The notes under the pieces are model-generated. The model was given only the letters and a program-made list of their open reading frames with translations. It ran no database searches and was not told the origin of the DNA. A DNA stretch of 44,005 bases from a virus. Below, in pieces: positions 11,598-35,740 of the stretch. A program made the translations under genes and the position numbers. The number at the start of each line of letters is the position of its first letter. The stretch's first letter is position 1. Location of the stretch: IMG/VR virus record IMGVR_UViG_3300025769_000233, positions 1-44,005 of that record, one strand, 5' to 3'.

Positions 11598-14500
11598 ATG
11601 TCTGAGGAGAACACCACGGATGGGGGAACTAATACCCCGAACCAAGAAACATCAGGAAATTCTATATCGAATACCCCTGAGTACGGTCTGAACTTTAACA
11701 ACCTTTCCTTTAGCCAAGGGCCTACCGAGCAGGTACGGAGCTTTGACGAGACCAAGGAGTTCATGGACGACACGACACAGTTCGGTCGCTATGATAACTT
11801 TGAGTCTGCGGCTCTGAACCAGTCTGGCTGGGAGGCACTGGGCCGTGGAGCTATGAACGCTGTGGGCGAAGTCGTCGGCGGTGGTATGGAAGGTATCGGT
11901 GCGCTGTTCAACTGGAACACGCTGACCGACCCTAAGAACACGGAGCGCAACTTCCTTGAGATGCTCGGCCAAGAGGTGCGGGGTAGCTTTGAGGATGGCA
12001 ACGAAATCTACGACCTGCGGGCTGGAGAGACTATGGACGTGATGAACGTCAAGTGGTGGGCTAAGAACCTGCCGTCTCTTGCGTCTACTGCTTCTATGTT
12101 TGTGCCCGGTATGGGTGCTGGCTTTGTTGCTGCTAAGGTTCTGTCAAAGGCAGGACGCACGCTGAACAAGATTAACAAGATTGGTAAGACTTTGGACAAG
12201 GCTGAGGAGCTGGCTAGTGTTGCCAAGGCTGGTAACATTGGTTCTGCTGTCGGTCGTCAGTTTGGTGGTGCTGTGGCCATGCGTCACGCAGAGAACATGC
12301 GTTCTGCGCACGACGTGTACGAGCAGGCTTACGCTGACATTGCTAATTCTGACGGAGGCGTCGAGCAGTTCAAGGGCACTACTGCATGGCGTGCTGCTGT
12401 TGAAGAGTTGGGACACCAACCTACTAAGGAAGAGCTTGCTGAGTACGTGGCAGGACAAGCCTCGTTGCAGTCCTACAAGGTAAACAGCCTGAACATTGGC
12501 TTTGACCTCCTGCACATGGGTGCACTCTCAAAGGCCCTCAAGGGTACGCGGGGTGTGCGGCGTGGGCTCAAAGGCGCTAAGCAAAAGGCAGCAGCTGCTG
12601 GTAAAGAGCTGACGCGTAAGCAGCGTAACATCGCACGGGCTAAGGGTCTGAGCGCTACGTTGTTTGAAGCTGGTACCGAGGGTATTGAGGAAGCTGTTAA
12701 CTTTATTGGTGAGAACGAAGGTCGTTACCTTGGCCGTCAGATTTCTGGAGGCGAGCAAACTAAGTTTGGTGACCGTTTCAATGAGTACGTTGCTGATGAC
12801 CACTTGTGGGAGTCTGCATTCCTTGGCGCTCTCGGTGGAGGCGTGATGGCAGGTGGCGGCTCTCTTGTTGGCCGTGGCAAGGCTACGCGTAACCATGAGA
12901 AAATCATGGAGCAGATTGAGACGCGTAAGAAAGCCCTTGCTGAGATTGGTAAAAAGGTTGATGCCGCTAGTAAGACTGGTGACGTTCGTGCGCAGCGTGA
13001 GGCTGTGCGTGAGGCCGTTACTGCAGAGGCTTTTGGAATGGGAGCCGAGTCTGCGTACAGCGGAACGGCTGACCTGCTGGAGATTCAGTTGGCTCAGTTT
13101 GAGGAGGCACTGCGCGAAGAGGGTCACAGCCCTCGCATGATTGAGCAGACGCTTAACGACATTGCTAACCAGTTTAACACTGCTGAGCAGTCTGTTGAGA
13201 AGGGACAGCTTGTGGTGCAAGAGCTCGGCCTCGATGAGGACACGGGCATGGAGGTAATGAACCAACTCCTGCAACACGACTTTGTCGCTAACAAGATTGC
13301 AAACAAGCGCCAAGCTAACACTCGTAAGCTGCAGGGTCTGCCCAAGAGCGAAGAGCGTAAGCGGGAGATTATGTGGCACTACCTCAACGAATACCTGAAT
13401 AAGGAAGAGGAGCAGGATGCCAAGGTAATCGAGCGGCTTGAGGAAGCTATGGGCGGCCGAGAAGCTGTGCAGGCTATGACCGAGCGCATTGTTGGTAAGG
13501 TTGAGCAGAACACTACGGTTGACACAGCCGCTGTTGCTGCAGCAAACGAAAAGCTTGACCTTGCTATGGCTAAGGTCGAGAGCCTTAAGGCTGCAGTTGC
13601 TAACCAGTCAGACAACGAGGCTGCTAAGCGTCAACTGGCTGATGAGTTGATTGAAGCTAACGCTGCGGTAGAGGCTGCAAAGGCTGGTGTCGAGACTGCT
13701 AAGGCAGGTACTACAGAAGACATTGTTACCGAGGGCACGCCTATCCAAGAGGTTGGTGAGAACAAAGCAGACGATGTTTTGCAGAGCGAGATTGAGCTGG
13801 ACTTCCAAGAAGCTGAGCTTGCTAAGCAGCGTGCTGCATTCTTGAGTGACGAGAACATCGACAAGCTGGTCGAGAAGTCTGAGGAGCGCAGGGCTGCTAA
13901 AGATAAAGAGCGCACTAAGCGGCGTAAGGAAGCTAAGGAAGAAGCTAAGACAAAGGAGGAGCTCGAGGCGCTGAAGAAGACTGCCGAGACTGTTGAGGAA
14001 GAGCAAGAGATTGACGATGCCTTGACGGACATGGTCAACCAAGCTAAGAACAACGAGACCCAGAAGGAACAAGAGCGTAGCAAGGATGTACAAGTTCCGA
14101 CTGAGGTACAGAAGGATATTGATACGCTGCTTGAAAACAGCAAGTATGTACAGCTAAACGAGGATGGCTCGGCTTACGTTGATAGCCGTACAGGTCAGCG
14201 GTACGTCCGCACGACTACGTGGATGAAGGGACCGAACGCTGCAGAGGAGTCTTTCTCTGACACGTTTGGTATTCCGTCCTCTAACATTGGTAACTCTGTT
14301 GACGAGTTTGTCCGTGACTTTATGGACGGCAATGTGCGCGCACCAGAGGCATACCCCCACTTGCCCGTTGAGCATCAAGAGAAGCTGGCACTGCAACTCA
14401 TGGAGTTGGAGGCACAGTTTGTTGCTAACGGTGAGAAGGTTATTGCTAAAGACGTCGTGCTGTTTAACGACATGGATGTCAGCAACTTAGACCCTAGTGC

Positions 14501-26500: not shown

Positions 26501-26543
26501 AAACTACATGGCTTACTCCGAGGTTAAGAACCTCATTGGTTGA
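11598..26543 (+). CDS. giant virion RNA polymerase/polyvalent protein with nuclease and two zincin domains (4981 aa)
   Basis: One open frame of 4981 codons encodes a protein of roughly 550 kDa. Visible in order: hydrophobic Gly/Ala stretches at about 157-193 and 403-428; a charged coiled-coil-like region (about 430-880); a PD-(D/E)XK nuclease set (D976, D990-x-K992, Q1040-x-x-x-Y1044); zincin motif H1774-E-A-F-H1778 with a candidate third ligand E1815; RNA polymerase motif D3072-F-D-V-D3076-K preceded by a R-I-P-S-E-S barrel strand; a second zincin H3770-E-F-G-H3774 with candidate E3818; and a hydrophobic segment near 4843-4861. In crAss-like phages related polymerases are packaged and transcribe early genes after injection; phi14:2 gp66 is the characterised example. 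The zincins may cleave the chain or host targets. Domain calls are motif-based; the delivery role is inferred. Confidence 0.85.
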   Translation: MSEENTTDGGTNTPNQETSGNSISNTPEYGLNFNNLSFSQGPTEQVRSFDETKEFMDDTTQFGRYDNFESAALNQSGWEALGRGAMNAVGEVVGGGMEGIGALFNWNTLTDPKNTERNFLEMLGQEVRGSFEDGNEIYDLRAGETMDVMNVKWWAKNLPSLASTASMFVPGMGAGFVAAKVLSKAGRTLNKINKIGKTLDKAEELASVAKAGNIGSAVGRQFGGAVAMRHAENMRSAHDVYEQAYADIANSDGGVEQFKGTTAWRAAVEELGHQPTKEELAEYVAGQASLQSYKVNSLNIGFDLLHMGALSKALKGTRGVRRGLKGAKQKAAAAGKELTRKQRNIARAKGLSATLFEAGTEGIEEAVNFIGENEGRYLGRQISGGEQTKFGDRFNEYVADDHLWESAFLGALGGGVMAGGGSLVGRGKATRNHEKIMEQIETRKKALAEIGKKVDAASKTGDVRAQREAVREAVTAEAFGMGAESAYSGTADLLEIQLAQFEEALREEGHSPRMIEQTLNDIANQFNTAEQSVEKGQLVVQELGLDEDTGMEVMNQLLQHDFVANKIANKRQANTRKLQGLPKSEERKREIMWHYLNEYLNKEEEQDAKVIERLEEAMGGREAVQAMTERIVGKVEQNTTVDTAAVAAANEKLDLAMAKVESLKAAVANQSDNEAAKRQLADELIEANAAVEAAKAGVETAKAGTTEDIVTEGTPIQEVGENKADDVLQSEIELDFQEAELAKQRAAFLSDENIDKLVEKSEERRAAKDKERTKRRKEAKEEAKTKEELEALKKTAETVEEEQEIDDALTDMVNQAKNNETQKEQERSKDVQVPTEVQKDIDTLLENSKYVQLNEDGSAYVDSRTGQRYVRTTTWMKGPNAAEESFSDTFGIPSSNIGNSVDEFVRDFMDGNVRAPEAYPHLPVEHQEKLALQLMELEAQFVANGEKVIAKDVVLFNDMDVSNLDPSASGVAGTVDLLTVDAEGNFRVYDMKTIRNAASKKKVVPFETDGINRRTGKAKYGTGDKSYKGSPTLQQKHQKQLSAYRLMLMNQLGRPVPEIGIIPVDVSYDTNDSLSTEELNAIVTGRADYLGMIAHTPLAKLNGLTEPEVNNAEPDPDDAPDPGKDDTKDEDPQDNQPVTTVELEPGTVTIETPDLIQFFTEKLSVDYDRHRGEPYLVHTANGPIVMDESLTKDQMLLLQEVISGANTEPITIRVVGDTTPIPSVEVFDALKDTHAADSLLTEKNKKGRRQYRPSGKGDTLALDIFVGDQRLGTLPNTSALMMAAHRRGMAESTSVIKGGKNKGLMFRQKSEDGFGVGSRVGEVRKHENRMMTGPTQAEHFERAAQMHALRQQLWELHTANGKNIADGVSFRVNINFGETSFGNKAQGSLIMDSSMEVRAEQYGVGASIRRHGIALMMPNTGNKEMSLKRSGERAAPITPYGYNETRHQQDGFNLSRHESGALFVPIESAGEVIWVKMPGQTVSMLNNGERIARDIITELANPTANSIARAQNLIGSNIVQEIEPGVFAIFADNRNIKVPESPENLAVSIYRDGQWSTPLEEIVPNMNVDIAVKIAQGDSAFNTDESFTVGGTKFDGISDFVASEMKLGHSPVVDGDGNVISWTHPLAPAYPYNEGDKDKSFSNENTMKTQLTMTATVLTGGEVKPVTTLSGKDLLDGLMDKDSTVPEGEKAFDVEGDLDFSFLTIAAAESSNNADRATKIDMKEAEEWWAKNMSSVPFKRVKGIIERNGLLGYGIFEKGAVEVSDRAVKGTEYHEAFHAVFQMFLSDDRQAKVMADAKRLYGAKSEEALEEDLAEDFREYMMTSGKSMNEKSVVRRFFSELMELINALTKEGFSGYRKAKLFQQINRGKFNNASPRVREYATRNMLIAENLPDYNENVQKELVQNVQSAAFTAIRAAQRGKAPASIMNLYNDLKQLNAMSRKEYNAMAKAQDMDGIQQEDLINQKMVQLGMQAMVHQANMVLKTAPNRAELAARYKKLFKQDVEPISKFLSEHPTVRAFTKSALDTEFTAGTNQHQQNNDSFEKMNPKDSLSANVRNLINTTPEVSIELSQNSPQIEFHMAAARLAGQEGDFAKAQEHIAEVQNLVNSNATETHFGLPQMMQVDRVFAFMSERLANKATPEAMIDELFRMGDSYPQFKLLGLRLMKETPDVRAQFFAGFRRGDTTELVVNNRKFIEVRGPFGGTLANHNRVPIQLRMEEIAAAKGKDLVQTARDAQAAAQRALKEVPNMTNEQFEKTANKWLDVIGFQTMDPQARSVVLAKITQDPDARAKLFSNIANVLGAYSGVANAKDVTDLTSDKLFNKHLMKLAEQFQAADMGAISTTFNNVAGSRQFSKQVPSFITEWFDQFQNFPEGTDIEAKLRETVFRDPRMYATTYGKLLFPNGASKPMDMAGMAAIRTYRLGGNESSQAKYTEMTEEEWMGMLISAVSNPVEVAHNSKYHFLPITTPSDATNTMMVPAFIYDMRSDAGKKAARMQLRKTIKSEFYELQRVPGRFTIGAVHEYLSKELNRKNEDGEGNFQIDMATLPEELLNEAVDKAVGSFAKEAQALVADENFQRAKQKSNRKESNNMELALTMVVSGYMSNWSTGVSLAGTPNEFSSKLKKNTVDMQKRHKHILSPGVANAGVTARSHFRSVTMVESVENLQKLWEGLDQTFALDDNYKKVEIADAQSYVSLEFYEDILMEHGDWTPEIGAAIAKAKKGEKLDASDVKLLRPYKPFYYTRQFDADLGMSRSYQIKNSIIPVVGALSPEFKKFEDWMRASGVDQVQMGTAHKVGQHKNNIPLRNAEGEFTGVAPTTNEEKASFDEEFVYELPMTGYRKQVNVTDHWHSDSENKLASQLEKIVTAAAVRNMGEEGARISNEFVQTMDEIYKEQYDKFFGQFETSNGEINPKKFAEWLLSEMAADEITDSSRKLIQAGMFTAPSVIGAVRGRIFSAVQKEVNTIQVNGGTQVQVASQFFRTNKNRLLPMRKEGDKILPAQIAASKDSLPKEYRDMTIEEIRAKAPEVLQSITLRIPSESINSGALVEIVEFLPDGMDGVIVPDEFVTQMGSDFDVDKLFFQFRANDNSKQDKLFDLMKEVFEDERNLKYIMAPQGFDTFSAKAKSRPIRTQEAEQQIVHNPLSLTTHISMRSDNMAGVALKGKAANRNIIFEDLIRNGFVYGAPLTINGNRAGFDYRTVSDTNKNIHSEAVAAAMDGAKDPVYGKLGITDDNFSMFMELVMLSDGDLDAAIDLVQSDAMRMEAAGHIRIMDASNDTVVVMAQTERGEQFLQMAANNSKENSAKYYPEKFQFTVRGSSNLNTTTNDMGTLMAGIGTWREQVSGPMRHINKVIRLDKKNVKNDIEGVMLTGSGNEDLVHGSFFTPGRPHTSATETKGEFSAALPIKNRMKSMFNETSKLLNDLGDGYLTYLTMHSEDRLSRGLKMAQWDAFKRNQAAAIHTDKVTYTAMGERKNMSPGLLPENKEDWSLENWLRYLRTSDEVKGDSTPLGRVISKLLVQPKPYEVRGIFFDNITLVGISDEVEARQLAEDVQELYDSDNDDFVSFVEAIDAYEAQRSGYGMSQSRLTGILPGDITMAIARATGAHGKTDEAMRAEPNAIIQEDIWNPNVPRINKPLSAAVMQVADSGMVGVFRTNDGHVIFPTHEQNGEIEWGSAKSPNEGQKFNGKRMLEGFQIHQTSKKNENWYSKLEYGPEVSRDDKIEHLKGRFRKAGIHVQVEFDSSLPENGRVVIDKGAAKITLHPDTLQGDTIAHEFGHILVEGLGYSNPLVQQGIEELRDSELWAQVEEAYPELNDRDLGMEVLVTAIGRKGSELFENQKNQSKFKTIYNRIMRAIGKLFGITPKATEQLAEKLMSGDISDISLNNIVTEQYQRRTNTLQTAIEDSRREVAEHLQNMRRRGGTSEEAQDALNRAWDLEKRLKSKATNGVKMAAVKNAAQDATNISFTVVESLEDYMTNADSNISRPGIRPEEQVLLDQAYTLREEMNRLKLAIASFDGIETVGPAQKKLLGELMQARNEMERAYDQLDQFAREAISKKLLAQSTDKTLTEADLDGINVFDLFDYAKTQQLAKDSSATGSATLGGAELKNAVMQLSHKLASGIMDASNFESKQDAAKVNQLLDSVSVPLDKLMTADGKYLITEFSREYYEGREKARRQGPVALAKFDAANTEMEQTQQYMNEFGIEHTMNIESRVFELKNRLRNPQLNNALIRKQSRELATELEHMALDFPKYHNIEVADGFQVAYEEAKRTQEEEIARIDAAREAGEDYEKDYDAVNALNSFVAENAVAEINGKATPMTGKYAKHTVKEEFQNKNFDGKAKPKSQHVNAEWTAASDEVKGALNELKDVFARATGSHGARMIERGYVPTYKSHKGETTTEGLKRKADKLREKIDLLKDKGERDKLISELKDIEHMIGNEQGVDSQGNPIYTTNNGAWTFAHKNKEFDGFADDDAFKNNIRQFVIDSHKQTGRRSLEAMAYLTRGYLADSKVVDSKHTFGKKGAAWKAGGNSNIIKTFDAFFEGTIADNWRDKSSLDSFADGVQTYTSLMGVGLNPSAWVNNYGYGVVQNRLSNLGEGAYSKDSLKKANKLLQSRSSKLLSDVWTGKRSLEDKAMAVIHSFDIAEDQRELPFNMRESGTSKAMSKAFIGQTYGELMLQNSVMFAMMMDTEVVLADGEVTNLYDALEHDPKTGAISFPEGAQMKSGARHVPLDSNSMGAFTNKVRHQNQYVHGAYNKQDAGLLQRQWYGRLAMQFRRWLPMGMKTRFTARHYNEAREREEIGTYRALREVLAATLQDVQEARKLFAKLDTLSPEDQFMQRHARRAIIEVMGGAALLAGTALAVSLLGGGDDENWLTAFALSRTERLGMELITYTPIGLMNLTNQIGKDPMAGGARIENLIKIGTLGVVDMARLATGQGFAVYEGGLNRGKSKLAVKTGKAIPLYDHAKRLIDIPSNYMAYSEVKNLIG
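14340..14800 (+). other. PD-(D/E)XK nuclease-like segment within the giant protein
   Basis: Residues about 915-1068 carry the Cas4/RecB-type order: A-G-T-V-D976-L-L, then a beta strand ending V-Y-D990-M-K992-T, then Q1040-L-S-A-Y1044 on a helix. D976, D990 and K992 are the expected metal and catalytic residues, and Q-x-x-x-Y is the accessory motif of RecB-like nucleases. Its substrate cannot be told from sequence; incoming host DNA or processing of phage ends are both possible. Confidence 0.65.
16860..17070 (+). other. zincin metalloprotease-like segment 1 within the giant protein
   Basis: Y-H1774-E-A-F-H1778 is an HExxH zinc-binding motif on a helix, preceded by K-G-T-E and followed about 37 residues later by E-E-D-L-A-E1815-D-F, a plausible third ligand. 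The H-E-A-F-H form with a downstream acidic helix is common in phage polyvalent and crAss-like giant proteins. It lies ahead of the polymerase core. Confidence 0.6.
20460..20850 (+). other. RNA polymerase catalytic double-psi barrel segment within the giant protein
   Basis: The stretch L-R-I-P-S-E-S (near residue 3033), then a strand, V-I-V-P-D-E-F and M-G-S-D3072-F-D3074-V-D3076-K parallels the second barrel of cellular beta-prime (the R-P then N-A-D-F-D-G-D pattern). The three Asp residues would hold the catalytic magnesium. Val stands where Gly is usual in cellular enzymes, as expected for the D-x-D-x-D form of crAss-like and related phage polymerases. Confidence 0.75.
22860..23080 (+). 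other. zincin metalloprotease-like segment 2 within the giant protein
   Basis: I-A-H3770-E-F-G-H3774 is a second HExxH motif, and G-M-E3818-V-L is a candidate third ligand 44 residues on. It lies about 700 residues after the polymerase motif and differs from the first zincin in the residues around the histidines, so the two are not a recent duplication. Confidence 0.6.
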
Positions 26544-26552
26544 TACGAAGAA

Positions 26553-26580
26553 GGGGGCCGGTCTCTTACCTCCGGCCCCC
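26553..26580. terminator. GC-rich hairpin between convergent blocks
   Basis: A perfect 9-bp stem, GGGGGCCGG (26553-26561) with CCGGCCCCC (26572-26580), has a 10-base loop and starts 9 bases after the giant gene's stop. Read on the + strand it is followed by a moderately U-rich TGACTTCTCTCTC; on the - strand by CTTCTTCG. It can serve as a bidirectional terminator between the converging operons, though neither side has a long U run. Confidence 0.6.
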
Positions 26581-26601
26581 TGACTTCTCTCTCAACACAA
26601 T

Positions 26602-26614
26602 GGAGTAAAACTCC
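26602..26614. other. small hairpin in the convergent junction
   Basis: GGAGT-AAA-ACTCC forms a 5-bp stem with a 3-base loop. It lies between the strong GC hairpin and the T-arm-like stem. It is too small to assign a role; a 5-bp stem with 3-base loop is the size class of N4-type hairpin promoters, but there is no other support for that here. Confidence 0.3.
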
Positions 26615-26615
26615 G

Positions 26616-26659
26616 AACTGTGAGGGGGAATCGAACCCCCTCTTGTTCCAAACACAGTT
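26616..26659 (-). other. two-part stem resembling a tRNA acceptor plus T-arm
   Basis: On the - strand an outer stem, AACTGT (26659-26654) with ACAGTT (26621-26616), encloses 11 unpaired bases and a perfect 7-bp stem GAGGGGG/CCCCCTC. The loop is TTCGATT, which fits the tRNA T-loop consensus T-T-C-R-A-N-N. No convincing D-arm or anticodon arm lies between, and the 5' side overlaps the stop of the small Cys-rich gene. It could be a tRNA relic, a tRNA-like element or simply a terminator. Confidence 0.4.
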
Positions 26660-26801
26660 ACGCCCCGCAAGCCTCGCAGTCTCCTGCTTCGCTTGAGAGG
26701 TCACAGACTTTGACGTCTGCCATCTTCTCCTCGCTTGCCTTAGCAAGTTCAGAGTTCATCTTGATACACGTGCAGTTTCCTGCTTCACAAAATTCACACA
26801 T
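26658..26801 (-). CDS. 47-aa cysteine-rich protein downstream of thyX
   Basis: The ATG at 26801 lies 3 bases beyond the thyX stop, and the frame ends at TAA (26660-26658). The 47 residues include seven Cys (2, 5, 10, 12, 33, 42, 45), in two related halves, C-E-A-G-N-C-T-C and S-E-A-G-D-C-E-A-C, separated by a charged helix with Met, Lys and Glu. CxxC and CxC pairs suggest zinc or another metal, with each half contributing ligands. It is the last gene of the - strand operon. I recognise no family; a small metal-binding or redox partner is possible but unproven. Close operon spacing and the internal repeat argue it is real. Confidence 0.65.
   Translation of the reverse strand: MCEFCEAGNCTCIKMNSELAKASEEKMADVKVCDLSSEAGDCEACGA
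26676..26786. repeat. 15-bp imperfect direct repeat inside the Cys-rich gene
   Basis: GCAGTCTCCTGCTTC (26676-26690) and GCAGTTTCCTGCTTC (26772-26786) differ at one base. They lie 96 bases (32 codons) apart in the same reading frame, encoding the E-A-G-D-C and E-A-G-N-C parts of the small Cys-rich protein. This points to an in-frame duplication that made the two Cys clusters. Confidence 0.7.
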
Positions 26802-26804
26802 AGA

Positions 26805-27443
26805 TTACCAGTTAAGAGCTTCCGCAACAGTGGGAAGCAGGGTTTTAAGATAGCTCTTAATCTCCTTTGCCACAAGCTGGATTTCTTTCTGGGCATGTTC
26901 GTCATCGCGCAGCTCAAGGAAGTGAATCCAAGAACGCACGTTGCCGGTCATGTGAATCTTTGTGCTAGTGCACAGTGGCAAGATGAAACGTGCCTGCTCG
27001 CGTGCTACCCCTGCCTTGATGAGCTCATCGTAAGCATGGCTAGTAGCGTTAAGCACGTGGTCAATCAACTCAGAAGCAGGAAACCCGGGACGAATGTCAG
27101 GGTTAAACACCTCAGTGCTAGACTGTCGATTGTCATCGCACTGCTTACGCAGCTCGATAGGTTCGAACATGTTGCCGAGTTGATTGACGTCTTGATACCG
27201 TTGACTAAACTCTTGGAATGAGAACGAGCGGTGGCGAATCAGCTGGATGCCGATTGCCTTGCTCGTCTCAATCTCAAACGTAAACGTTGCGTGCTCAAAC
27301 GGAGACCAGTGCGCGTGCTTAGCTAAGTATTTAACTAGGCCTGCATAGTTACTGGTCTTGTCTGTGCGTTTGCTGGATACCCGTGCAACTTCTACAATCG
27401 TCCTCTCTGGGTCCGGCGTGTGTGCAATCAGCTTTACGTTCAT
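26805..27443 (-). CDS. thyX: flavin-dependent thymidylate synthase ThyX (212 aa)
   Basis: ThyX makes dTMP from dUMP using methylene-tetrahydrofolate, FAD and NADPH. The family signature R-H-R-x7-S is present at residues 70-80 (R-H-R-S-F-S-F-Q-E-F-S) and runs into Q-R-Y. Further family features are an S-P-F-E-H segment (about 47-51) and R-S-W-I-H-F-L-E-L-R near the C-terminus. At 212 aa it is normal for a phage ThyX. Its start overlaps the DUF3310 gene by four bases (ATGA). Together with dUTPase upstream in the operon it would keep dUMP flowing into dTMP for phage DNA synthesis. Confidence 0.95.
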   Translation of the reverse strand: MNVKLIAHTPDPERTIVEVARVSSKRTDKTSNYAGLVKYLAKHAHWSPFEHATFTFEIETSKAIGIQLIRHRSFSFQEFSQRYQDVNQLGNMFEPIELRKQCDDNRQSSTEVFNPDIRPGFPASELIDHVLNATSHAYDELIKAGVAREQARFILPLCTSTKIHMTGNVRSWIHFLELRDDEHAQKEIQLVAKEIKSYLKTLLPTVAEALNW

Positions 27444-27748
27444 ACTGGGTCAATGGTTGGGTCAAATTGGTCGAGCTCCTCGAGGAACTCTTCTACTTTA
27501 GGGTCTTGAAACATCTCTGGCATCTTACTGGTTTCCAGTTCGATAAGCCGGTCGATGTACCACTTGGCTTTCTGTAGGTCCTGCAGTCCGTTCTTGTTAC
27601 GCCAGCGGCTAACATACTTGACGACGTTACCCTCGTGATAACCAAGCGCGTTCGTTTCAATGAACTGGATAGGCTCAATACTCAGACTAGAGTAGTGGTC
27701 GCCGCCGACTTGCGTCGCTGGCTTTGGTGGTTGTTTGTAGCTACTCAT
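27440..27748 (-). CDS. DUF3310 family protein (102 aa)
   Basis: The sequence H-Y-S-S-L-S-I-E-P-I-Q-F-I, then G-N-V-V-K-Y-V-S-R-W-R-N-K-N-G and D-L-Q-K-A-K-W-Y-I is the hallmark of the DUF3310 family. It is common in phages and sometimes annotated, without firm evidence, as a nucleotide kinase. The family resembles all-alpha NTP pyrophosphohydrolase-type folds in general pattern, but no function is established here. The C-terminal 30 residues are acidic. It overlaps both neighbours by four bases and sits directly before thyX, which suggests a nucleotide-pool role. Confidence 0.85.
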   Translation of the reverse strand: MSSYKQPPKPATQVGGDHYSSLSIEPIQFIETNALGYHEGNVVKYVSRWRNKNGLQDLQKAKWYIDRLIELETSKMPEMFQDPKVEEFLEELDQFDPTIDPV

Positions 27749-28224
27749 TGAAAAGAAACTTTGTTAAGTGAAACGCGGATACGCTTCCTGTAATTCATGT
27801 GTGCATCGATAGCACGCTCCACTCGGTCTTGAGACGAGCACGTAAACACGGCACCCCCATACCCCACTTGGGAGCAGGCGGGCCGGTTTGAGTGCACCTT
27901 CTTCACGTAGTCAAGAGACGCCAGCTCTGTCCCTCTAACTTTGGACAGGTGCGGGTACTTCTCAATACGTATAAACTGAATGTCTGCTCCGATGGAATCG
28001 AGACGTTCTTCTTTGGCCAAGATGCGGAGCTTGTTAAACAAGCGCCCACCGTCGGTGTCCTTGTCAACTGTCACGCAGTCAAGGGGTTGCATGGTAGCAT
28101 CAGCTACGAATGCCTTGAGCTTTTGAAACTCTTCGTCTCGGAACGGATTAGACCAGTCCACATTTTCATTGATGTGGGCTAGCAGCCAATCCACTACTTC
28201 GATATCAGATGTAATAGGCTCCAT
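27745..28224 (-). CDS. unknown protein (159 aa)
   Basis: The start is taken as ATG 28224, which overlaps the nuclease gene upstream by 20 bases; the longer frame beyond it only mirrors the nuclease gene. The N-terminus is acidic and helical (S-D-I-E-V-V-D-W-L-L-A-H-I). A middle segment, V-D-K-D-T-D-G-G-R-L-F, is followed by a mixed alpha/beta part with G-Y-G-G-A-V-F-T-C and a basic end. I recognise no family. The gene is locked between nuclease and DUF3310 genes by overlaps, so it is surely translated with them. Confidence 0.6.
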   Translation of the reverse strand: MEPITSDIEVVDWLLAHINENVDWSNPFRDEEFQKLKAFVADATMQPLDCVTVDKDTDGGRLFNKLRILAKEERLDSIGADIQFIRIEKYPHLSKVRGTELASLDYVKKVHSNRPACSQVGYGGAVFTCSSQDRVERAIDAHMNYRKRIRVSLNKVSFQ

Positions 28225-29224
28225 CTTTTGCGTATTCGTAATCGTTAACCCAGTCACCAGTTTCAAAGTGGTGCTGGAGTCGGTCGAGTAATGACAAGTA
28301 TTCTTCACGGCCAGCGTCGATGGTGCGACGTTTGATGATAAACTTGGCGGCACGGAACTCACCCTTTGTCTCAACGGCAAGGATGACATGCCGGTGGCTA
28401 GGCTTGAATGCCAAGTCAGGGTACTTCTGCGAAAGCCACTTGGCTGCAGCAATCTCGTACGCTGCCATTTGACGGGCGTAGTGGTAGGTCTCAAAGGACT
28501 CGGAGAACTGCGCAAGGTTCTTGGCAGTAGTCTTCAAGTCAATGATAGTATACTCACCAGTTGCAAAGTCAACACGCAGCCGGTCAATCTTACCCTTCAA
28601 CGGGAAGCTGTACTTCTCATCTTCCCACGTAACCTCCTGCTCGTTGAAGTACTTGACTTGTCCTTCAGCCTCTTCCTTTACCATGTAGATGAGCTTGCGT
28701 CCGCACTTGTCATTGTTCAAGCCAGCCAAGCAGCGGTCCATCCGCTCTTCTTGTGACTTGGTAATAACGAAGCCGTCTTCTTCTGCTGTCTTAGTCAGCA
28801 GTGTAAAGTAAGCGCCACCGTTCTCGAGCACCTTGTTGATGCGCGTCTCGTCCTTCCACGTCTTGCCGTAGTTGTGCTCGTCGCACGCACTCATGATGGC
28901 AGGGTAGTAGTTCTCGAACGGCTTGTACTCAGAGTTCTCAAGGTCGAACGGGTCCACCTTGACATTCTTGAACACCGTGCTTACGATGTCACGAATCTTA
29001 TCAGGGGTGTTAGTCTTGTCGACTTGGTAGTTCAACAGGTGTGGCTCGAGCACAGCAAGGTGCACAAGGTTGCCGAACTCAAGGCTAGCCGTGGCCAGCT
29101 TGGGTCCGTTGCCATCCCAGTGCTGTTTGAAGAGAGCGGGTGAACCGCCCTCCTCAGGATTGATATGACGCAGCGAGCTGTTAGATACAGCCTTGATGTC
29201 ATAGTATGGGTCGTATACTAACAT
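28205..29224 (-). CDS. PD-(D/E)XK exonuclease, RecB/Cas4-like (DUF3799-type), 339 aa
   Basis: Residues in order: G-N-L-V-H55 (the His of RecB-like nucleases), a long helical middle, G-K-I-D214-R-L, then I-I-D229-L-K231-T and Q252-M-A-A-Y256 on the following helix. These are the metal-binding and catalytic residues and the Q-x-x-x-Y motif of Cas4/RecB-type nucleases. The DUF3799 group includes the RecE (exonuclease VIII)-like phage exonucleases. It probably resects DNA ends for the phage's own recombination, working with the Sak4-like ATPase and SSB of the same operon. Its ATG overlaps the stop of the DnaA-like gene by one base. Confidence 0.85.
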   Translation of the reverse strand: MLVYDPYYDIKAVSNSSLRHINPEEGGSPALFKQHWDGNGPKLATASLEFGNLVHLAVLEPHLLNYQVDKTNTPDKIRDIVSTVFKNVKVDPFDLENSEYKPFENYYPAIMSACDEHNYGKTWKDETRINKVLENGGAYFTLLTKTAEEDGFVITKSQEERMDRCLAGLNNDKCGRKLIYMVKEEAEGQVKYFNEQEVTWEDEKYSFPLKGKIDRLRVDFATGEYTIIDLKTTAKNLAQFSESFETYHYARQMAAYEIAAAKWLSQKYPDLAFKPSHRHVILAVETKGEFRAAKFIIKRRTIDAGREEYLSLLDRLQHHFETGDWVNDYEYAKDGAYYI

Positions 29225-29928
29225 TAGTACTCGTTGTATTTGTTAATTGTCTTCTCCTCAAACTTCTGAGGGTCAGCAGTCTTTGCATACTCGGCAAGCG
29301 AGTCATGCTTGTGGATGTACATCTTGCGGCGGCGCAGCTCTTTCATAGAGCCCACAGTCTCGACAGCACGCAACACAAACGTGCCCTCACGGACAATCTT
29401 GTTTGTCTTGGCTTGGTCAATACGACCATCGGCATGCGTGACCTTCGTAATCTCAGCAAGGGCATCGGCTGCATCAAGCTTGATAATCTTGGTATAGGTC
29501 TCGGGGTCCTTGAGCTGGTCATGCACCCACGCGTAGTACCAGTCGTTGCCGCTGGATGACAGGTCGACGAGCTCCAACCGTTCCAGAATACTGTACATGT
29601 TGTCACGCTCCTCGCGGTATACTTCCATCTCTTTCTCCAACACACGCACGTGGTGCATCATGTTAGTACGGTCTCGTTGGATAACCTTTGCAAGCTTAAC
29701 GAAGGACCACCCACAGAAGTGGAAGAGAATGTGGCCAGCGAAGCGGCGTGCACGTACAATCTTCTTGTACCTGCGGTCTGAAAAGAACTCTTCCTCAGTC
29801 ACGTCGAACTGTTGAAGAACTTCATCTATCACTCGCGTCGGCGACGGCAAGTGCTCTGTTGTTGACGTTTGCAGCATTGACTTTTGTACAGCCATGCCGG
29901 GGTACGCCCAGTAACTTACGTTTTCCAT
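29224..29928 (-). CDS. DnaA domain IV-like DNA-binding protein (234 aa)
   Basis: Residues about 33-100 match the helix-turn-helix pattern of DnaA domain IV: V-I-D-E-V-L-Q-Q-F-D-V, R-R-Y-K-K-I-V-R-A-R-R-F-A-G, then the signature-like R-D-R-T-N-M-M-H-H-V (85-94), where DnaA has R-D-H-S-T-V-L-H-A. The AAA+ ATPase domain of DnaA is absent. The C-terminal 130 residues are charged and helical and do not match anything I know. It could bind DnaA boxes in phage or host DNA to start or block replication. It is the first gene after a hairpin and has its own short leader, so it may head a sub-operon. Confidence 0.75.
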   Translation of the reverse strand: MENVSYWAYPGMAVQKSMLQTSTTEHLPSPTRVIDEVLQQFDVTEEEFFSDRRYKKIVRARRFAGHILFHFCGWSFVKLAKVIQRDRTNMMHHVRVLEKEMEVYREERDNMYSILERLELVDLSSSGNDWYYAWVHDQLKDPETYTKIIKLDAADALAEITKVTHADGRIDQAKTNKIVREGTFVLRAVETVGSMKELRRRKMYIHKHDSLAEYAKTADPQKFEEKTINKYNEY

Positions 29929-29941
29929 TGTGTTAAGAGTT

Positions 29942-29977
29942 ATAGTAGGGGGAGAGCCGTCTACCCTCCCCCACTAT
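29942..29977 (-). other. G-rich stem-loop ahead of the DnaA-like gene
   Basis: On the - strand ATAGT plus GGGGG-type arms pair over 12 bp with one bulged base, around an 11-base loop. It begins one base after the TAA of the 84-aa gene and ends 13 bases before the next ATG. It could be a terminator, but the bases after it (AACTCTTAACACA) hold no U run. Confidence 0.5.
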
Positions 29978-29978
29978 G

Positions 29979-30233
29979 TTACATGACGTCTGACTGAATC
30001 AGTCGGAAGTCATCGTCGCCAGAAGACACCTCGATTACTAGGTAACCGGGGTAATCTTCATGGCTTTTATCGAAGAGCTTAAAGTCTCTCAGCTCTCCGG
30101 GAAATATGAATTCAAGCCTACCTTGCAGCAGCCGAGTGTCCTTGGTGTTGGGCAATCGGCATACTGCGTAGGTAGGATGCTCGGTGTCCTTTACCAATTT
30201 CTTGATAGTCCACCGAGTATAGAGCTCACGCAT
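29979..30233 (-). CDS. unknown protein (84 aa)
   Basis: The start is ATG 30233, overlapping the rIIB-like gene's stop by 8 bases; the longer frame upstream is a shadow of that gene. The protein is compact and probably alpha/beta: W-T-I-K-K-L-V-K-D then Y-A-V-C-R-L, F-I-F-P-G-E-L-R-D and Y-L-V-I-E-V. It ends in an acidic stretch. No known family or motif is recognised. It closes the rIIA-rIIB cluster just before a strong stem-loop. Confidence 0.6.
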   Translation of the reverse strand: MRELYTRWTIKKLVKDTEHPTYAVCRLPNTKDTRLLQGRLEFIFPGELRDFKLFDKSHEDYPGYLVIEVSSGDDDFRLIQSDVM

Positions 30234-31362
30234 ACACGCGACGCTCGCTAATGATAGCACGCTGAGCCTCAGCCACTTCGCCGTCTGCGATAGTAGCCTC
30301 GTACTCTTTGAGCTGCTCGTCGAGCTGGCGCTCTTCGTACGTCTTGTAGTCAACCTCGAAGTACGGAGTGCGAATCTCCATGTCGTTGTTCAGGTCAACA
30401 ATACCATACGCGTAGTACTCACACACGCGCATCTTCTGATACGTGTAGTCAGCAGGAATAGCGCAGATGTTCATCGGGTTTACGAGGCACGCGATGTATT
30501 CGCTTCCGCTTCCTCCGAATCCTTTGACGTACCCCGGAGCACCAATATGCAAACCACTACTACAAGTATTGGCAGGGTCACAGTCAACAGTAGAGCGGTC
30601 CATAGAAACCGTGCCACCAATACGAACGGAAGTAGAACCAGAGAAATGGTCTGTATACTCCGGTGCATCAGTGACGCCGGTGACTTGGTTTTGGAACATC
30701 TCCTCGAGGTTGCCGAGGGTGTTTGCGGGGTCGATGAAGTTGCCATGATTGTCGGTAATAACGTCGGTCTTGACAGCAACGAACTCACCGCCGTCGGGGT
30801 CGGTCATTGCAGTGTAGTTGGCCGGGTTCTCACCAGTGGCCTTGAGCTCTACGTACTTCTGCGGCACCCAACCGGTGACAGCATCGTACGTCTTGTCGGT
30901 GCGCTTCACAGAACGGTAGCCGATAAAGTAACCGGAGTCCGTGATAGGGAAGTCGTACTGCGACATGAACTTGAACGCATCGTTGCGTGCTTGCGGGTCG
31001 GGGTTCAGGAGCAACAGCTTCCAGAAGTTGACCAGAGGTTGCACGCTGATGTTGTCCTCGACGTGCTGTTGGATACGCAGGACAAGCTCCTCGGGCATTG
31101 CAACAGTCTCATAACCAGTCAGGTAGAAGTTACCGTTCTTGATGCTGAAGATGTTGTCGGCGATGAGCTTGCGTCCCGGCATGCACTCGTTGAGCAAGAG
31201 CTCTACGTTGGTGCTGTTCGGATTGCTTCGTGCAGACAGAGCTTGGTTGTACAGAGCTACTGCCTCGTCGGTGTTCTTGAACTCCCGGCGGTACATGTCG
31301 AGGCCCACGATGACGTGGACTTGGTTGCCATGACGAATGGCATGGATGTTGATGTTTTCCAT
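30226..31362 (-). CDS. rIIB: rIIB-like protein (378 aa)
   Basis: The C-terminal half carries the rIIB-type pattern C-S-S-G-L-H-I-G, then Y-I-A-C-L-V-N-P-M-N-I-C-A-I-P and K-M-R-V-C-E-Y. It follows a rIIA-like gene in the transcription direction, as in T4 and many other phages. In T4 the rIIA/rIIB pair is membrane-associated and counters exclusion by the lambda rex system; the biochemical role is still unclear. The start is ATG 31362, 15 bases after a GC hairpin, with a C-T-C-A-A-C-A leader; the open frame beyond it would run through the hairpin and into rIIA. The N-terminal 130 residues are less recognisable. Confidence 0.75.
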   Translation of the reverse strand: MENINIHAIRHGNQVHVIVGLDMYRREFKNTDEAVALYNQALSARSNPNSTNVELLLNECMPGRKLIADNIFSIKNGNFYLTGYETVAMPEELVLRIQQHVEDNISVQPLVNFWKLLLLNPDPQARNDAFKFMSQYDFPITDSGYFIGYRSVKRTDKTYDAVTGWVPQKYVELKATGENPANYTAMTDPDGGEFVAVKTDVITDNHGNFIDPANTLGNLEEMFQNQVTGVTDAPEYTDHFSGSTSVRIGGTVSMDRSTVDCDPANTCSSGLHIGAPGYVKGFGGSGSEYIACLVNPMNICAIPADYTYQKMRVCEYYAYGIVDLNNDMEIRTPYFEVDYKTYEERQLDEQLKEYEATIADGEVAEAQRAIISERRVYA

Positions 31363-31377
31363 AATTGTTGAGATGGT

Positions 31378-31403
31378 GGGGGCCGCCAGTATTGACGACC
31401 CCC
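31378..31403 (-). other. GC-rich stem-loop between rIIA and rIIB
   Basis: On the - strand GGGGGTCG pairs with CGGCCCCC (8 bp, one G-U) around a 10-base loop. It starts 8 bases after the rIIA stop and ends 15 bases before the rIIB ATG. The following bases, ACCATCTCAACA, have no U run, so a simple intrinsic terminator is not certain. Confidence 0.5.
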
Positions 31404-31411
31404 GGTTTTGA

Positions 31412-33709
31412 TTACGCACGGTTGGGGTACACGTACGTGAGTGCTTCGGCACACATGGCATTGAACTTGGTATTCCAAGTCCGCATGCCAGCGATTGCGT
31501 CAGCGAGAAACGGTTGTTTCTCTTGCATGTCAAGGTAGGTCTTGACCATCTTGCCAAGCGGAGCTAGGCTGACGGACATCTGACCAATCTTGAACACGTC
31601 TTGAGTGATAGACTCACCGGTGTTGGTAGCACCCATCCGCTTGTGTGCAATCACTTCGGCCTTGCGGACCTGTTGCATGTAACGGTTGAATGCCTTATCA
31701 CCGGCGCAGTGCAAGTCAAGGAAGGCATCGAAGCCTGCAATCTGACGCATCTGCCAGAAGCGAGTGAAGAAGCGAGTTGCGTCGTTGGTGACCTTGCGGG
31801 CCTCACGCTTAGCTTGGAGGTTAGCGAATGACTCGAAGACCTCCATCTTCGCAAACTCCTTGGCAGTCTTGGCGGACACGGCGAACAAACGAACATCGTT
31901 CATCTCGTAGTTCTCGTGTACCCAAGCATCAAAGTCTTGCCAACGGCAATCACCATTAGCGTGTTCTTCTTTGAGTGCTTGTACTTCCAAGGTGGTCAAG
32001 TAAATAACGCCCTTCCCGATATTCTTCTGCAAATCTTTCAGGGGGCAGTCTACCACACCAAACCGACCAATTCCACGCAAACGAAATGCATCGTTGGCAC
32101 GAACCTTCTTGTCAGTCTTGTTCTGCTTACGCAGCTCAGCCATACGCAGCTTGCGTGCTTCTCGCCATTGCTCGGTAGCAAGGACACTGTCAGCGTGCAC
32201 ACTGTGTTCTTTGAGCTCGACCAAGAACTGCTTACCAAAGCGCTCATAGAGAACCTCGGCATTCGTCTTGCCGTGTGGCAGTGAGCCAGACTGTGCAATC
32301 AAGGTGTGGAACCCAGTGATAGCCATCAGGTTCGGGTCAGCCTTGCGGGACACAAACAGCAGCGGCTTCTCAGAGAACACTTCTGCAATGTACTCCTTGT
32401 CGGCAGCAGTAATCTTGATGCCTTGAGGACTACGCACAATCTCAGCCTCTTTCTTCCAGTAGGTACCAGCGGTCACGTTACCGAGCAACACAGCGATAGG
32501 GCGGTAGTCAGCGTTCTGCTTAGACCAGCGGAACTTCTTGCCCATACCACGGTTGTTCTCCTGCCACTCGTTCTCCATCTCCAACAGCATGCTGCAGTAG
32601 GAAGCGACTTCTCCGAGCGGAGCCTTGGGGAACTTGGTGTAGGTCAAGCCCTTCATGTTAACAAGGTCCTCGGACACACGACGTTGACGAGACATAGCCC
32701 AGTCCATGTCGAACTTGGTACCGTCAGGCAGTTCCAATGCGTGCGACTTGCGACCCTTCATAGCTTCGATAAGGCTGTCCGTTTCGGTAGCCTGACTGTC
32801 AGCCATGCTTTGCATCTCACCTACGACCTCTGCAAACCGCTCGTTGATGTACGTCTTGGCGTCATCCGTAAGCTGCAAAGACTCGCGGCTCATGGTCGGC
32901 ATGACCTTACCAATCTCAAGCTTCGGAATAACAGGCACACCACGGTATGTCCTGTAGATGTCTATAGCTTCGAAGTGGTCGTACACTACATTACCAAGTG
33001 CAACCTTGTTAGTAACAGGGTCACCGTGGCGGTCAAGCGCAATGTAGAACGTGTCAAACTCATAGACCGTAGCAGGCGTGTACTCCGCGTTGTCGGTCAA
33101 GGTCACTGCGATAGGACGCATGAGCAGAGTCTGCTCGTTGACAGCCTTGACAAACTTCTCGTAGTCGAACCGGCTAGCGATGGGGATACGGATAACCGTA
33201 CCGCAACCCACCTCAGGTGTTTCGCTGAGCAGGGTGCAGGTACGGTCTTGTCCGCGCTTCTCCAACAGGTAGGTGCGCTTGACATTGCTAGACCACGTCT
33301 CCACACGGAACACGTCAGTGTAAGCGAACGGGGACTTTGCACCGATACCGAAGCCACCAATCATCTCGTTATCATCGCGCTTGGTAGACGCAAAGTACAA
33401 GGTAAAGATGTCATCGATACGTTCAGGATTGATGCCGATACCACAGTCAGTAAATGCAATCTCGCCTTGATTGGAGAAACTGTTTGGTGCTGTGAGGTCA
33501 ATACGTACGGGCTGGTTGGCCTTACCTGACTCGACGTTGGCGTCGATGGCATTCGAGGTAAGTTCACGTACGATACTGCCGTACTTGTCGGAGTACAGAC
33601 CGTCGGACATCATGTCCATCAGGAAGCTTTCTGCTTCGGGGGCAAAGCCCATCTTCTTGCCAGAGTTAACAGTTGACTGATACTCAGCGGCGGTGTTCTT
33701 AAACTTCAT
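31412..33709 (-). CDS. rIIA: rIIA-like GHKL ATPase (765 aa)
   Basis: The N-terminal domain shows the GHKL (gyrase/Hsp90/histidine kinase/MutL) ATP-binding motifs: R-E49-L-T-S-N53-A-I-D56-A (N box), T-D88-C-G-I-G92 (G1) and G-G-F-G-I-G-A-K-S (about 118-126, G2). The rest is helical and Lys/Glu-rich and unique to rIIA-like proteins. With the following rIIB gene this forms the classic phage pair linked in T4 to host-exclusion resistance and membrane function. Its leader holds a C-T-C-A-A-C-A sequence before ATG 33709. At 765 aa it is about the usual length (T4 rIIA is 725 aa). Confidence 0.85.
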   Translation of the reverse strand: MKFKNTAAEYQSTVNSGKKMGFAPEAESFLMDMMSDGLYSDKYGSIVRELTSNAIDANVESGKANQPVRIDLTAPNSFSNQGEIAFTDCGIGINPERIDDIFTLYFASTKRDDNEMIGGFGIGAKSPFAYTDVFRVETWSSNVKRTYLLEKRGQDRTCTLLSETPEVGCGTVIRIPIASRFDYEKFVKAVNEQTLLMRPIAVTLTDNAEYTPATVYEFDTFYIALDRHGDPVTNKVALGNVVYDHFEAIDIYRTYRGVPVIPKLEIGKVMPTMSRESLQLTDDAKTYINERFAEVVGEMQSMADSQATETDSLIEAMKGRKSHALELPDGTKFDMDWAMSRQRRVSEDLVNMKGLTYTKFPKAPLGEVASYCSMLLEMENEWQENNRGMGKKFRWSKQNADYRPIAVLLGNVTAGTYWKKEAEIVRSPQGIKITAADKEYIAEVFSEKPLLFVSRKADPNLMAITGFHTLIAQSGSLPHGKTNAEVLYERFGKQFLVELKEHSVHADSVLATEQWREARKLRMAELRKQNKTDKKVRANDAFRLRGIGRFGVVDCPLKDLQKNIGKGVIYLTTLEVQALKEEHANGDCRWQDFDAWVHENYEMNDVRLFAVSAKTAKEFAKMEVFESFANLQAKREARKVTNDATRFFTRFWQMRQIAGFDAFLDLHCAGDKAFNRYMQQVRKAEVIAHKRMGATNTGESITQDVFKIGQMSVSLAPLGKMVKTYLDMQEKQPFLADAIAGMRTWNTKFNAMCAEALTYVYPNRA

Positions 33710-33757
33710 GTTCTGTGTGTTGAGGTGCTCTCGTGCAATAGCGCAGTCTATGAGCGG

Positions 33758-34396
33758 TTAGAAGCTCAGACTTTCGTCTGATTCGGTTTCGGTGTGGTAG
33801 GACACGTATGCCCCGTGTTCCAGTATCTCCGGCCTGTCCTCAGGGACAAGTCGGTATACCAGTTTGCGGTCTTCCGTGTGGTCAACAGGGAAGTAACGGA
33901 AGCCGGGTGCTTGTGTGACAAACATAACGTTGTCATCAGGCAGCACGCCGTTCTTCACGAGAGAGTCAAGGAAACATTTGTGGTAAATCCACTGGTTGTC
34001 CAAGTCCCAGTTCTTTGCTTGCAGCGGTGCGTACAAGTCCGCTTCGATACGGACAGGTATGCCAACTGGCTCAAGCTTAGAGGTATAGGGTTGGAAGAAT
34101 TCCTTGATAAGGTTCACAACCTTCGAGCGCATCATGGGGTTCATGTTGCCGCTGTAGAGTTGCTGGCCGTTAATCTTTAGAAGTCGAGGCTTGCTAACCA
34201 CAGCAGCATTAGCCACAATAGGAAGCCCGTCAGCCCCAAGCAGACGACCACGTAAATCATATTTCTTAAACTTCGCATACTTCTTGGGAATCTTCTGACC
34301 CTTGCGGTAGTACTTAGGCTTACGACTTTTGCTGAGCTCCACGTGAGTAATGTACTCAGGAATCTCAATCGTTAACCCAGACTTCGAAGCAATCAA
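33758..34396 (-). CDS. RusA-like Holliday junction resolvase (about 212 aa; start uncertain)
   Basis: The core W-D-L-D-N-Q-W-I-Y-H-K-C-F-L-D, then G-V-L-P-D-D-N-V-M-F-V is the RusA signature (D-x-D-N, K, D and D-D, the acidic residues that hold the metal). RusA-type enzymes cut four-way junctions before packaging or during recombination. The N-terminus carries a basic, Lys/Tyr-rich extension before the catalytic domain. I chose TTG 34396; GTG 34408 and GTG 34342 are alternatives. A much longer version from ATG 34600 would add a Ser/Lys/Arg-rich tail read in another frame of the 80-aa gene. A C-terminal acidic end (E-S-D-E-S) is visible. Confidence 0.7.
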   Translation of the reverse strand: MIASKSGLTIEIPEYITHVELSKSRKPKYYRKGQKIPKKYAKFKKYDLRGRLLGADGLPIVANAAVVSKPRLLKINGQQLYSGNMNPMMRSKVVNLIKEFFQPYTSKLEPVGIPVRIEADLYAPLQAKNWDLDNQWIYHKCFLDSLVKNGVLPDDNVMFVTQAPGFRYFPVDHTEDRKLVYRLVPEDRPEILEHGAYVSYHTETESDESLSF

Positions 34397-34607
34397 TTTG
34401 GATAACACGGTCGTCGAGCGTTGCGTTGATGGCGAAACCGTCTTCGCTTGCTTTCTCGTACGTCCATTCGCCTTGGTCTGCGAGCTGCTCCTTGATGTCT
34501 TTGATGCACTCAGCTGCCCCTTGTTGTGAGCGGAAGCCTTGCGCTTGGACGGTGCCCTCTTGGGAGTCGAAGACTTGGACGAGCCAGATTTGTTCTGCAT
34601 CAGCCAT
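34365..34607 (-). CDS. unknown small acidic protein (80 aa)
   Basis: ATG 34607 overlaps the primase stop by 8 bases. The 80 residues are balanced and fold-like (I-W-L-V-Q-V-F-D, G-A-A-E-C-I-K-D-I-K-E-Q-L, V-I-Q-I-D-C-F-E-V-W-V), as in a small alpha/beta protein, with acidic net charge. I know no family for it. The same DNA is also open in the frame of the downstream RusA-like gene, giving a Ser/Lys/Arg-rich sequence. I prefer the 80-aa frame because its sequence looks globular and its start is coupled to the primase stop. Confidence 0.55.
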   Translation of the reverse strand: MADAEQIWLVQVFDSQEGTVQAQGFRSQQGAAECIKDIKEQLADQGEWTYEKASEDGFAINATLDDRVIQIDCFEVWVND

Positions 34608-35568
34608 TCATTAGCTTGTTAACCCATTGCTGGGCGTGATAGGGAGACGACACCTGTAGGTCTGATATGTCCTTGGCACCTTCGACGAAGGCGTAGTTGA
34701 TATCAAACTGTCGGCGCATCTTGTTCGTGTTCTTGACACCCGTGTAGTCGTAGTCATAGACTAGTGTAATCTTGCTAAAGCGTTGCTTCAGTTCGTCTAC
34801 GTAGTCGTATGTCAACGGGTGCACCTCGGACTGCGGAGCAATCGCAGGCACACCATACTCAGCAAACACCATCACGTCCTTGAGAGACTTGGTAATGATG
34901 AGGTGCTTACCACCCTTGGGTAGCTGCGAATCGCCTTGCACCACGTCTGTGTTGCATAGGAAGCGCACCTTGTCCTTGAGTGGGAAGTACAGTTTGTAGT
35001 CGTTACCACCAAACCAGTAGGCAAAGCCCGGGCTTGTTGCAACGTACCTGTAGATAGGTTTCTCGTTGCACCACGCTTGGTTCAACTGGAAGACCTTGTA
35101 CTTCTTGAGTGTACTAGGTGTGACGCCGTATTTATGCCAGAACTTCTGGCCAGCATCGTCCATATCCCATGAGCCGTTGAGGGTGTAGGGCTCGATAGTT
35201 ATGGATGTAGGGTCATTGGCTAGCTTCTTGGCTAGCTCCAACGTTTCGTCAACTACAGGCGTGCGTTCTACACGCAGCAAGTTGAACTCGTCGGTCAGTC
35301 TTTTCAAGACCTCGGTGAAGTCACAGCGCAACACAGTGCACGCTACCTCAAAGGCATCCATGGGACGCCCCTTGCCGAAGTCACGAAATAGTAACTTGCC
35401 CTGCTTGTTGTAATAGTATACACAAGACGGGCTGTTGTCCTCGCGGAACGGGGAATGAAACTTGGCGTTGATTACAATTGGATGGCCGGTGTACCGGACC
35501 ATGATTTCTTCTTGCGATACACGCTCAAGTATCCATTCCTTGTTAATAGTAGGTAAGATACTATACAT
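34600..35568 (-). CDS. DnaG-type primase with TOPRIM domain (322 aa)
   Basis: The N-terminus follows the DnaG zinc-domain pattern (S-P-F-R-E-D-N-S-P-S, then F-R-D-F-G and D-A-F), but the zinc-binding Cys/His are replaced, so the fold is probably metal-free. The TOPRIM domain follows: L-I-I-T-K-S-L-K-D-V (about 223-232), the position that usually holds the E-G pair, and Y-D272-Y-D274-Y-T-G, the D-x-D motif, with G-A-K-D-I-S-D near the end. It would make RNA primers and work with the DnaB-like helicase encoded upstream. Its ATG lies 8 bases after a hairpin with a U run, so it may depend on readthrough or on its own promoter. Confidence 0.85.
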   Translation of the reverse strand: MYSILPTINKEWILERVSQEEIMVRYTGHPIVINAKFHSPFREDNSPSCVYYYNKQGKLLFRDFGKGRPMDAFEVACTVLRCDFTEVLKRLTDEFNLLRVERTPVVDETLELAKKLANDPTSITIEPYTLNGSWDMDDAGQKFWHKYGVTPSTLKKYKVFQLNQAWCNEKPIYRYVATSPGFAYWFGGNDYKLYFPLKDKVRFLCNTDVVQGDSQLPKGGKHLIITKSLKDVMVFAEYGVPAIAPQSEVHPLTYDYVDELKQRFSKITLVYDYDYTGVKNTNKMRRQFDINYAFVEGAKDISDLQVSSPYHAQQWVNKLMNG

Positions 35569-35576
35569 GAATAAAA

Positions 35577-35598
35577 GGGGACGCCCGAAGACGCCCCC
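35577..35598 (-). terminator. intrinsic terminator-like hairpin with UUCG loop
   Basis: On the - strand a 9-bp stem (two G-U pairs) closes a TTCG tetraloop, and the right arm is followed by TTTTATT. This is the best classical terminator in the window. It lies after the small membrane-protein gene and directly before primase. Confidence 0.75.
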
Positions 35599-35605
35599 TA
35601 TTATA

Positions 35606-35740
35606 TCAGTTCAATAGCTTGTACAAGCAGAAGATGAGCATAGCCCATCCAGCACTAATCATAAACATCGTAGCCCAATCTGTGTGACCGGGCAGGCGGT
35701 GTCGGATGTACCACCGCTTCAACAAACTCAACCTAGCCAT
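35606..35740 (-). CDS. small single-pass membrane protein (44 aa)
   Basis: ATG 35740 overlaps the SSB-like gene's stop by one base (TAATG), and the frame ends at TGA 35608-35606. The first 20 residues are basic (K-R-W-Y-I-R-H-R), followed by one hydrophobic helix (about 22-40, W-A-T-M-F-M-I-S-A-G-W-A-M-L-I-F) and a short tail. The positive N-terminus predicts that end stays in the cytoplasm. No family is recognised. Strict coupling to the SSB-like gene and the terminator 8 bases downstream support a real gene. Confidence 0.65.
   Translation of the reverse strand: MARLSLLKRWYIRHRLPGHTDWATMFMISAGWAMLIFCLYKLLN

Follow-up and report, generated by a model that had tools for sequence, protein, structure and literature searches.

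Hairpins directly in front of phage genes are known from phage N4, whose T7-like virion RNA polymerase (vRNAP) uses promoters with a template-strand hairpin of 5-7 bp and a 3-nt loop centred at -11 (PMC4496689). In phiX174, the terminators TJ, TF, TG and TH are hairpins that separate co-transcribed genes; they are 'not stringent' and, in addition, stabilise the mRNA upstream of them (PMC3335065). For hairpin terminators that lack a U-tract it is disputed whether they terminate (PMC5335608).

CrAss-like phages are very abundant gut phages with a packaged polymerase of unusual descent. This virion polymerase is marked by a DxDxD motif (PMC7886860). According to the work on phi14:2, as far as it is summarised in PMC10136315, it reads the early and probably also the middle genes; the authors of the crAss001 study suggest host polymerase for the middle genes (PMC8375218). 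None of the papers that our search found maps termination signals in these phages.

The window, i.e. the whole stretch of 44,005 nucleotides analysed here, derives from a marine crAss-like phage and covers 44 kb of its genome. It carries four G-rich hairpins (A-D) at gene junctions, which we interpret, with a probability of about 0.7, as terminator-type 3'-end elements that act at the RNA level and belong to the gene upstream of each.

Results

A crAss-like replication block and a giant virion RNA polymerase

The primase of the window matches crAss-like phages with ~33% identity, and the replication block has the expected order of RIIA, RIIB, ThyX, DnaB-type helicase and DNA polymerase genes. 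Non-coding sequence amounts to ~455 of the 44,005 bases (~1%). The genes next to hairpins A, B and C lie on the minus strand and comprise a DnaG-type primase (34600..35568; PHROG primase, 4e-43), a RIIA-like (31412..33709) and a RIIB-like gene (30226..31362), both with matches to the RIIA/RIIB family, and a gene with a DnaA C-terminal domain (29224..29928; Bac_DnaA_C, PF08299, 4e-9). The start of the RIIB-like gene is backed by the relative G005, where the gene also begins after the hairpin. Two short minus-strand ORFs complete the set, one of 44 aa (35606..35740), by eye a short membrane protein, and one of 84 aa (29979..30233) with no match in the relatives. As a side observation, this crAss-like phage encodes a spore-photoproduct-lyase-like protein (43252-44001, minus strand; PF20903, 8e-21).

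On the plus strand, a gene of 4981 aa spans positions 11598..26543. A tblastn search matched it to crAss proteins annotated as 'RNA-polymerase subunit' with E values down to 6e-16, and the DxDxD motif is present as DFDVD near residue 3080. The motif reads MGSDFDVDK in the window and in G005, DFDVDK in G015, and DYDIDK in G009 and G007. The C-terminal part of the protein, used as query against IMG/VR, retrieved no relatives. The conserved motif together with the crAss polymerase matches supports the original prediction that the phage has a virion polymerase. Judged by sequence, the gene is a vRNAP of the crAss two-barrel type and not of the T7-like N4 type.

Four hairpins directly behind stop codons

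Four G-rich hairpins had been predicted, three of them just before the ATGs of primase, rIIB-like and DnaA-like genes, and all four are present. Hairpin A (core 35576-35599, extended 35572..35603, minus strand) lies between the 44-aa ORF and the primase gene and has the tail TTTTATTC. Its arms oppose GGGGG and CCCC, i.e. five G against four C, its loop is C(UUCG)G, and its flanks consist of A/U and pair with each other; including this AU flank it ends 3 nt before the primase ATG. Hairpin B (31378..31403, minus strand) starts 8 nt past the stop of the RIIA-like gene, and hairpin C (29942..29977, core 29948-29972, minus strand) 1 nt past the stop of the 84-aa ORF. The sense-strand 3' ends are 7 nt (A, 35576 to 35568), 15 nt (B, 31378 to 31362) and 13 nt (C, 29942 to 29928) away from the ATGs of the primase, RIIB-like and DnaA-like genes, whose predicted identities hold. 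Hairpin D (26552..26581, assigned to both strands) occupies a convergent junction, 8 nt past the vRNAP stop and facing the end of the opposing replication operon; its 10 bp are all Watson-Crick pairs and no gene follows it on either strand. A plus-strand gene start proposed at 26600 had to be rejected, as the frame reads ATG GAG TAA and contains two codons only.

All four hairpins thus have a GC-rich stem that starts 1-8 nt past a stop codon, a feature missed by the original prediction, as was the 44-aa ORF just before hairpin A. The stems comprise 10-11 bp and the loops 4-10 nt. The U-tract that follows the stem of a canonical terminator is missing from B and C, as predicted; A has TTTTATT and D has merely pyrimidine-rich tails (GACTTCTCTC / TCTTCG). 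A scan with a terminator consensus yielded hits at chance frequency (17 found vs 17.7 expected) and detected only A among the four, and an Rfam search gave nothing above threshold.

Next to hairpin D, between it and the last gene of the replication operon, we observed a 45-nt tRNA-like mini-structure (26615-26659, minus strand; L020 12961-13005, plus strand). An acceptor-like stem of 6 bp stacks on a T-arm of 7 bp, whose loop reads TTCGATT; there is an 11-nt TGG-containing bulge and no anticodon arm. The T-stem covaries between the window and G005, and weak sub-threshold Rfam matches point to mascRNA-menRNA (window and G005) and to the tmRNA T-arm. In G009 and its relatives a full tRNA with a CAU anticodon is located near the same junction. 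The element may be a shrunken tRNA that has been kept as an RNA-processing signal. Between it and ThyX lies a 47-aa Cys-rich ORF (26658-26801, minus strand), which is 83% identical in G005 and for which a family search returned no family.

Hairpin and upstream gene are present or absent together

We compared the junctions with those of relatives that share the gene order (G001-G006, G016 and G017). Hairpin A, conserved in six phages, is present in G001, G002, G003/G004, G006 and G017, each time right after a small ORF; the sequence behind the stem is not conserved. G005 and G016 have neither such an ORF nor the hairpin, and their primase gene directly follows its neighbour. In most of the more distant relatives the hairpin is lacking as well, and the primase ATG either shares bases with the upstream stop (TAATG) or comes immediately after it. 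Likewise, G005 has lost hairpin C and the gene before the DnaA-like gene together and has kept the DnaA-like gene. Hairpin B occupies the same position in G001, G002 and G005 with a changed stem in the latter two, and at the place of D, G005 has a stem of different sequence that is again entirely Watson-Crick paired. The presence of a hairpin thus tracks the upstream rather than the downstream gene. Consistent with this, intergenic stems of the close group lie at a median distance of 8 nt from the upstream stop vs 35.5 nt from the next start, with genes called by simple ORF rules.

A further conserved hairpin junction was noticed upstream of the window's right edge (L014 2220-2245 / L017 2161-2190 / L015 14329-14358). 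It occurs in G001, G003/G004 and G002, and the G003 copy has the loop C(UACG)G and the tail TTTCTTTTCTCC.

Wobble pairs place the stems in the sense RNA

A G.U pair in the sense RNA corresponds to an A.C mismatch on the opposite strand, so that wobble pairs reveal the strand on which a stem forms. Every copy of A, B and C contains two G.U and zero A.C, and both copies of D contain neither. In codirectional intergenic stems the ratio G.U:A.C was 36:6 as compared to 125:84 in coding stems (Fisher p = 0.0013, with homologues that are not independent of each other); with one hand-picked representative stem per unrelated hairpin it was 27:1 (p = 1e-5). Accordingly, the RNA hairpins are more stable in sense than in antisense orientation, with -18.2 vs -9.0 kcal/mol for A, -20.6 vs -11.6 kcal/mol for B and -18.7 vs -12.6 kcal/mol for C, whereas D is nearly equally stable on both strands (-22.3 and -21.8 kcal/mol). 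On the sense strand the loops of hairpin A read C(UUCG)G, C(UUUG)G or C(CUCG)G, the first of which is a tetraloop of exceptional stability in RNA and is frequent in terminators.

Relatives have canonical terminators at matching sites

At the end of the vRNAP gene, where the window has hairpin D, G009 and G007 contain AAAAAAGAGAGC..GCTCTCTTTTTT and G015 contains AAAAAAGGGCTAC..GTAGCCCTTTTTT, both textbook bidirectional A/U-tract terminators. In the AT-rich G015, another canonical terminator with A/U-tracts occupies the place of hairpin A, 17 nt upstream of the start called for primase. Canonical terminators at matching sites in relatives are the strongest link between structure and function. 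Together with the position behind stop codons, the co-loss with the upstream ORF, the covariation of the stems (see below) and the wobbles on the sense strand only, the terminators at the D site argue for hairpins that act as RNA and mark the 3' end of the upstream gene, in line with the terminator alternative of the original prediction. That they actually terminate or stabilise transcripts, how leaky they are and to which polymerase they respond, we infer.

The consensus scan, which picks up only A and no more hits than expected, speaks against the terminator reading, and so do two further points. With only TTTTATT at A and no U-tract at either B or C, classical intrinsic termination should be weak, and the downstream replication genes have no space for a promoter of their own after the hairpin: with only 7-15 nt between hairpin and start, the next gene has to be reached by read-through. 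A, B and C could hence be purely post-transcriptional elements that do not terminate and instead block 3'-5' exonucleases after cleavage, thereby conferring segmental mRNA stability, or insulate the translation of adjacent genes. Both points fit such a role, as do the extension of hairpin A with its AU flank close to the primase ATG and the fact that the phiX174 terminator hairpins, too, stabilise upstream mRNA (PMC3335065). D and its counterparts in relatives, in contrast, are terminators by position and sequence, and a translation switch is contradicted by the hairpin A-to-ATG distance, which is not conserved (7-14 nt). We therefore regard an exclusively post-transcriptional function as unlikely. 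A stable sense-RNA hairpin without U-tract between genes that are, by gene order, co-transcribed is also what a U-less or leaky terminator looks like.

A possible vRNAP-related signal in a relative

The terminator reading can be narrowed to the phage's own enzyme, with A-D being termination signals that are specific to the crAss-like two-barrel vRNAP and do not need a U-tract. Two G.U pairs on the sense side would keep the RNA stem strong and weaken a DNA cruciform, and a motif found in G002 at a distance of 5-6 nt from hairpins would be part of the signal or an early promoter. We consider this more specific proposal doubtful.

The motif, TAGAGGTRAG-NNTCCAA-CTCRTTTAT, occurs in seven copies on the minus strand of the G002 early region (L016, G002 19001-24471), at positions 19398, 21147, 21584, 22670, 23553, 24130 and 24402. 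Five of the seven TAGAGNTRA sites are preceded by a strong stem of variable sequence (-17.7 to -22.9 kcal/mol) that ends 5-6 nt upstream, as compared to a stem of -13 or better at 8% of random positions. Read by eye, the wobbles of these stems are G.U on the sense strand only. The motif did not stand out in unbiased k-mer counts, so that the element rests on the hairpin spacing test. A search for the motif in viral contigs gave eight matches, in which only G002 pairs motif and hairpin and the rest look like chance. The combination could be a terminator plus an early promoter or one compound signal; present in one contig only and outside the window, it is the best candidate here for a vRNAP-related signal.

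The hairpins differ from N4-type promoters

As an alternative to terminators, the original prediction had offered hairpins in the DNA that serve the phage's vRNAP as promoters, as in N4, and the giant vRNAP gene and the three gene starts directly after hairpins would suit such promoters. The hairpins agree with none of three features of the N4 system, i.e. stem and loop size, a hairpin on the template strand and a T7-like vRNAP. Their stems and loops misfit, and under N4 geometry the +1 position would come to lie inside the stem. The template strands of A, B and C contain two A.C mismatches each, and with DNA parameters the template-strand stems are weaker than those of the sense strand (-4.5 vs -7.4, -5.4 vs -8.8 and -6.0 vs -7.6 kcal/mol for A, B and C, respectively). 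D has no gene to serve, and the downstream genes persist where a hairpin is lost. Moreover, the vRNAP of P23-45, a two-barrel enzyme of broadly the same class, recognises linear promoters with an AT-rich motif (PMC10770324). On the basis of strand polarity, geometry, the convergent location of D and the polymerase family we reject the hairpin-promoter reading, which we consider highly improbable.

Covariation and enrichment

In an alignment of the six copies of hairpin A, 96.4% of the cells are paired and five pairs show two-sided changes. The covariation score was reached by 0/500 shuffles, and sliding the partner by 1-3 columns lowers the pairing to 46-70%. The pattern G5-N4..20-C5 occurs four times in the window, a count that includes a T-arm-like element at 26624-26640 and leaves out hairpin A, whereas 200 dinucleotide shuffles average 0.13 and never exceed 3. 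Non-coding gaps hold four of the five best minus-strand stems in 26400-44005. An origin as mobile REP-like repeats or as GC-rich inverted repeats arisen by chance, which the G-runs common to the stems might suggest, deserves hardly any credence, as the hairpins are enriched over shuffles and confined to ~1% of the sequence, change in a compensatory manner across relatives, which already contradicts this origin, and differ in stem sequence from junction to junction and thus are not copies of one repeat.

Discussion

On the reading we prefer, D would be a full, factor-independent, bidirectional terminator that separates the vRNAP gene from the replication operon running towards it. The other three, A, B and C, would be intercistronic hairpins within that operon. 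Acting as leaky terminators and/or as barriers to 3' decay, they would set the dosage of the genes on either side in expression steps along the operon.

If the hairpins stop a two-barrel vRNAP without a U-tract, they would provide a simple in vitro test of how such a polymerase terminates. The G.U polarity test, in addition, is a cheap way to tell RNA from DNA hairpins in any phage.

D resembles canonical bidirectional intrinsic terminators in that it has a perfect stem between convergent genes, at a site that is flanked by A6/U6 in G009, G007 and G015. It differs from them in its tails, which are merely pyrimidine-rich.

A-C are most like the phiX174 terminators TJ, TF, TG and TH (PMC3335065), which are also hairpins between co-transcribed phage genes, located downstream of genes and subject to read-through. 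Unlike there, B and C have no U-tract, termination is predicted, and the polymerase may be the phage's own. The poly-U-less rho-independent terminators of phiC31 (Ingham 1995, as cited in PMC5335608) and 'I-shaped' terminators share with the hairpins described here a strong GC hairpin without a U-tract in a phage gene block. As far as that citation goes, the objection that a missing U run argues against terminators is half right: such terminators have been reported, while their class is disputed. In contrast to the crAss-like phage with its two-barrel vRNAP, phiC31 has an actinobacterial host.

P23-45 also has a two-barrel polymerase, and the terminators of its vRNAP (PMC10770324) are comparable in that the hairpins, too, may be 3'-end signals specific to the vRNAP. 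There, the signal is a 26-nt sequence motif, whereas here structure is conserved and sequence varies. With the N4 vRNAP promoters (PMC4496689), finally, the hairpins have in common that an inverted repeat directly precedes genes and that the phage packages a polymerase. Stem length, loop, strand and position set them apart, as does the polymerase family.
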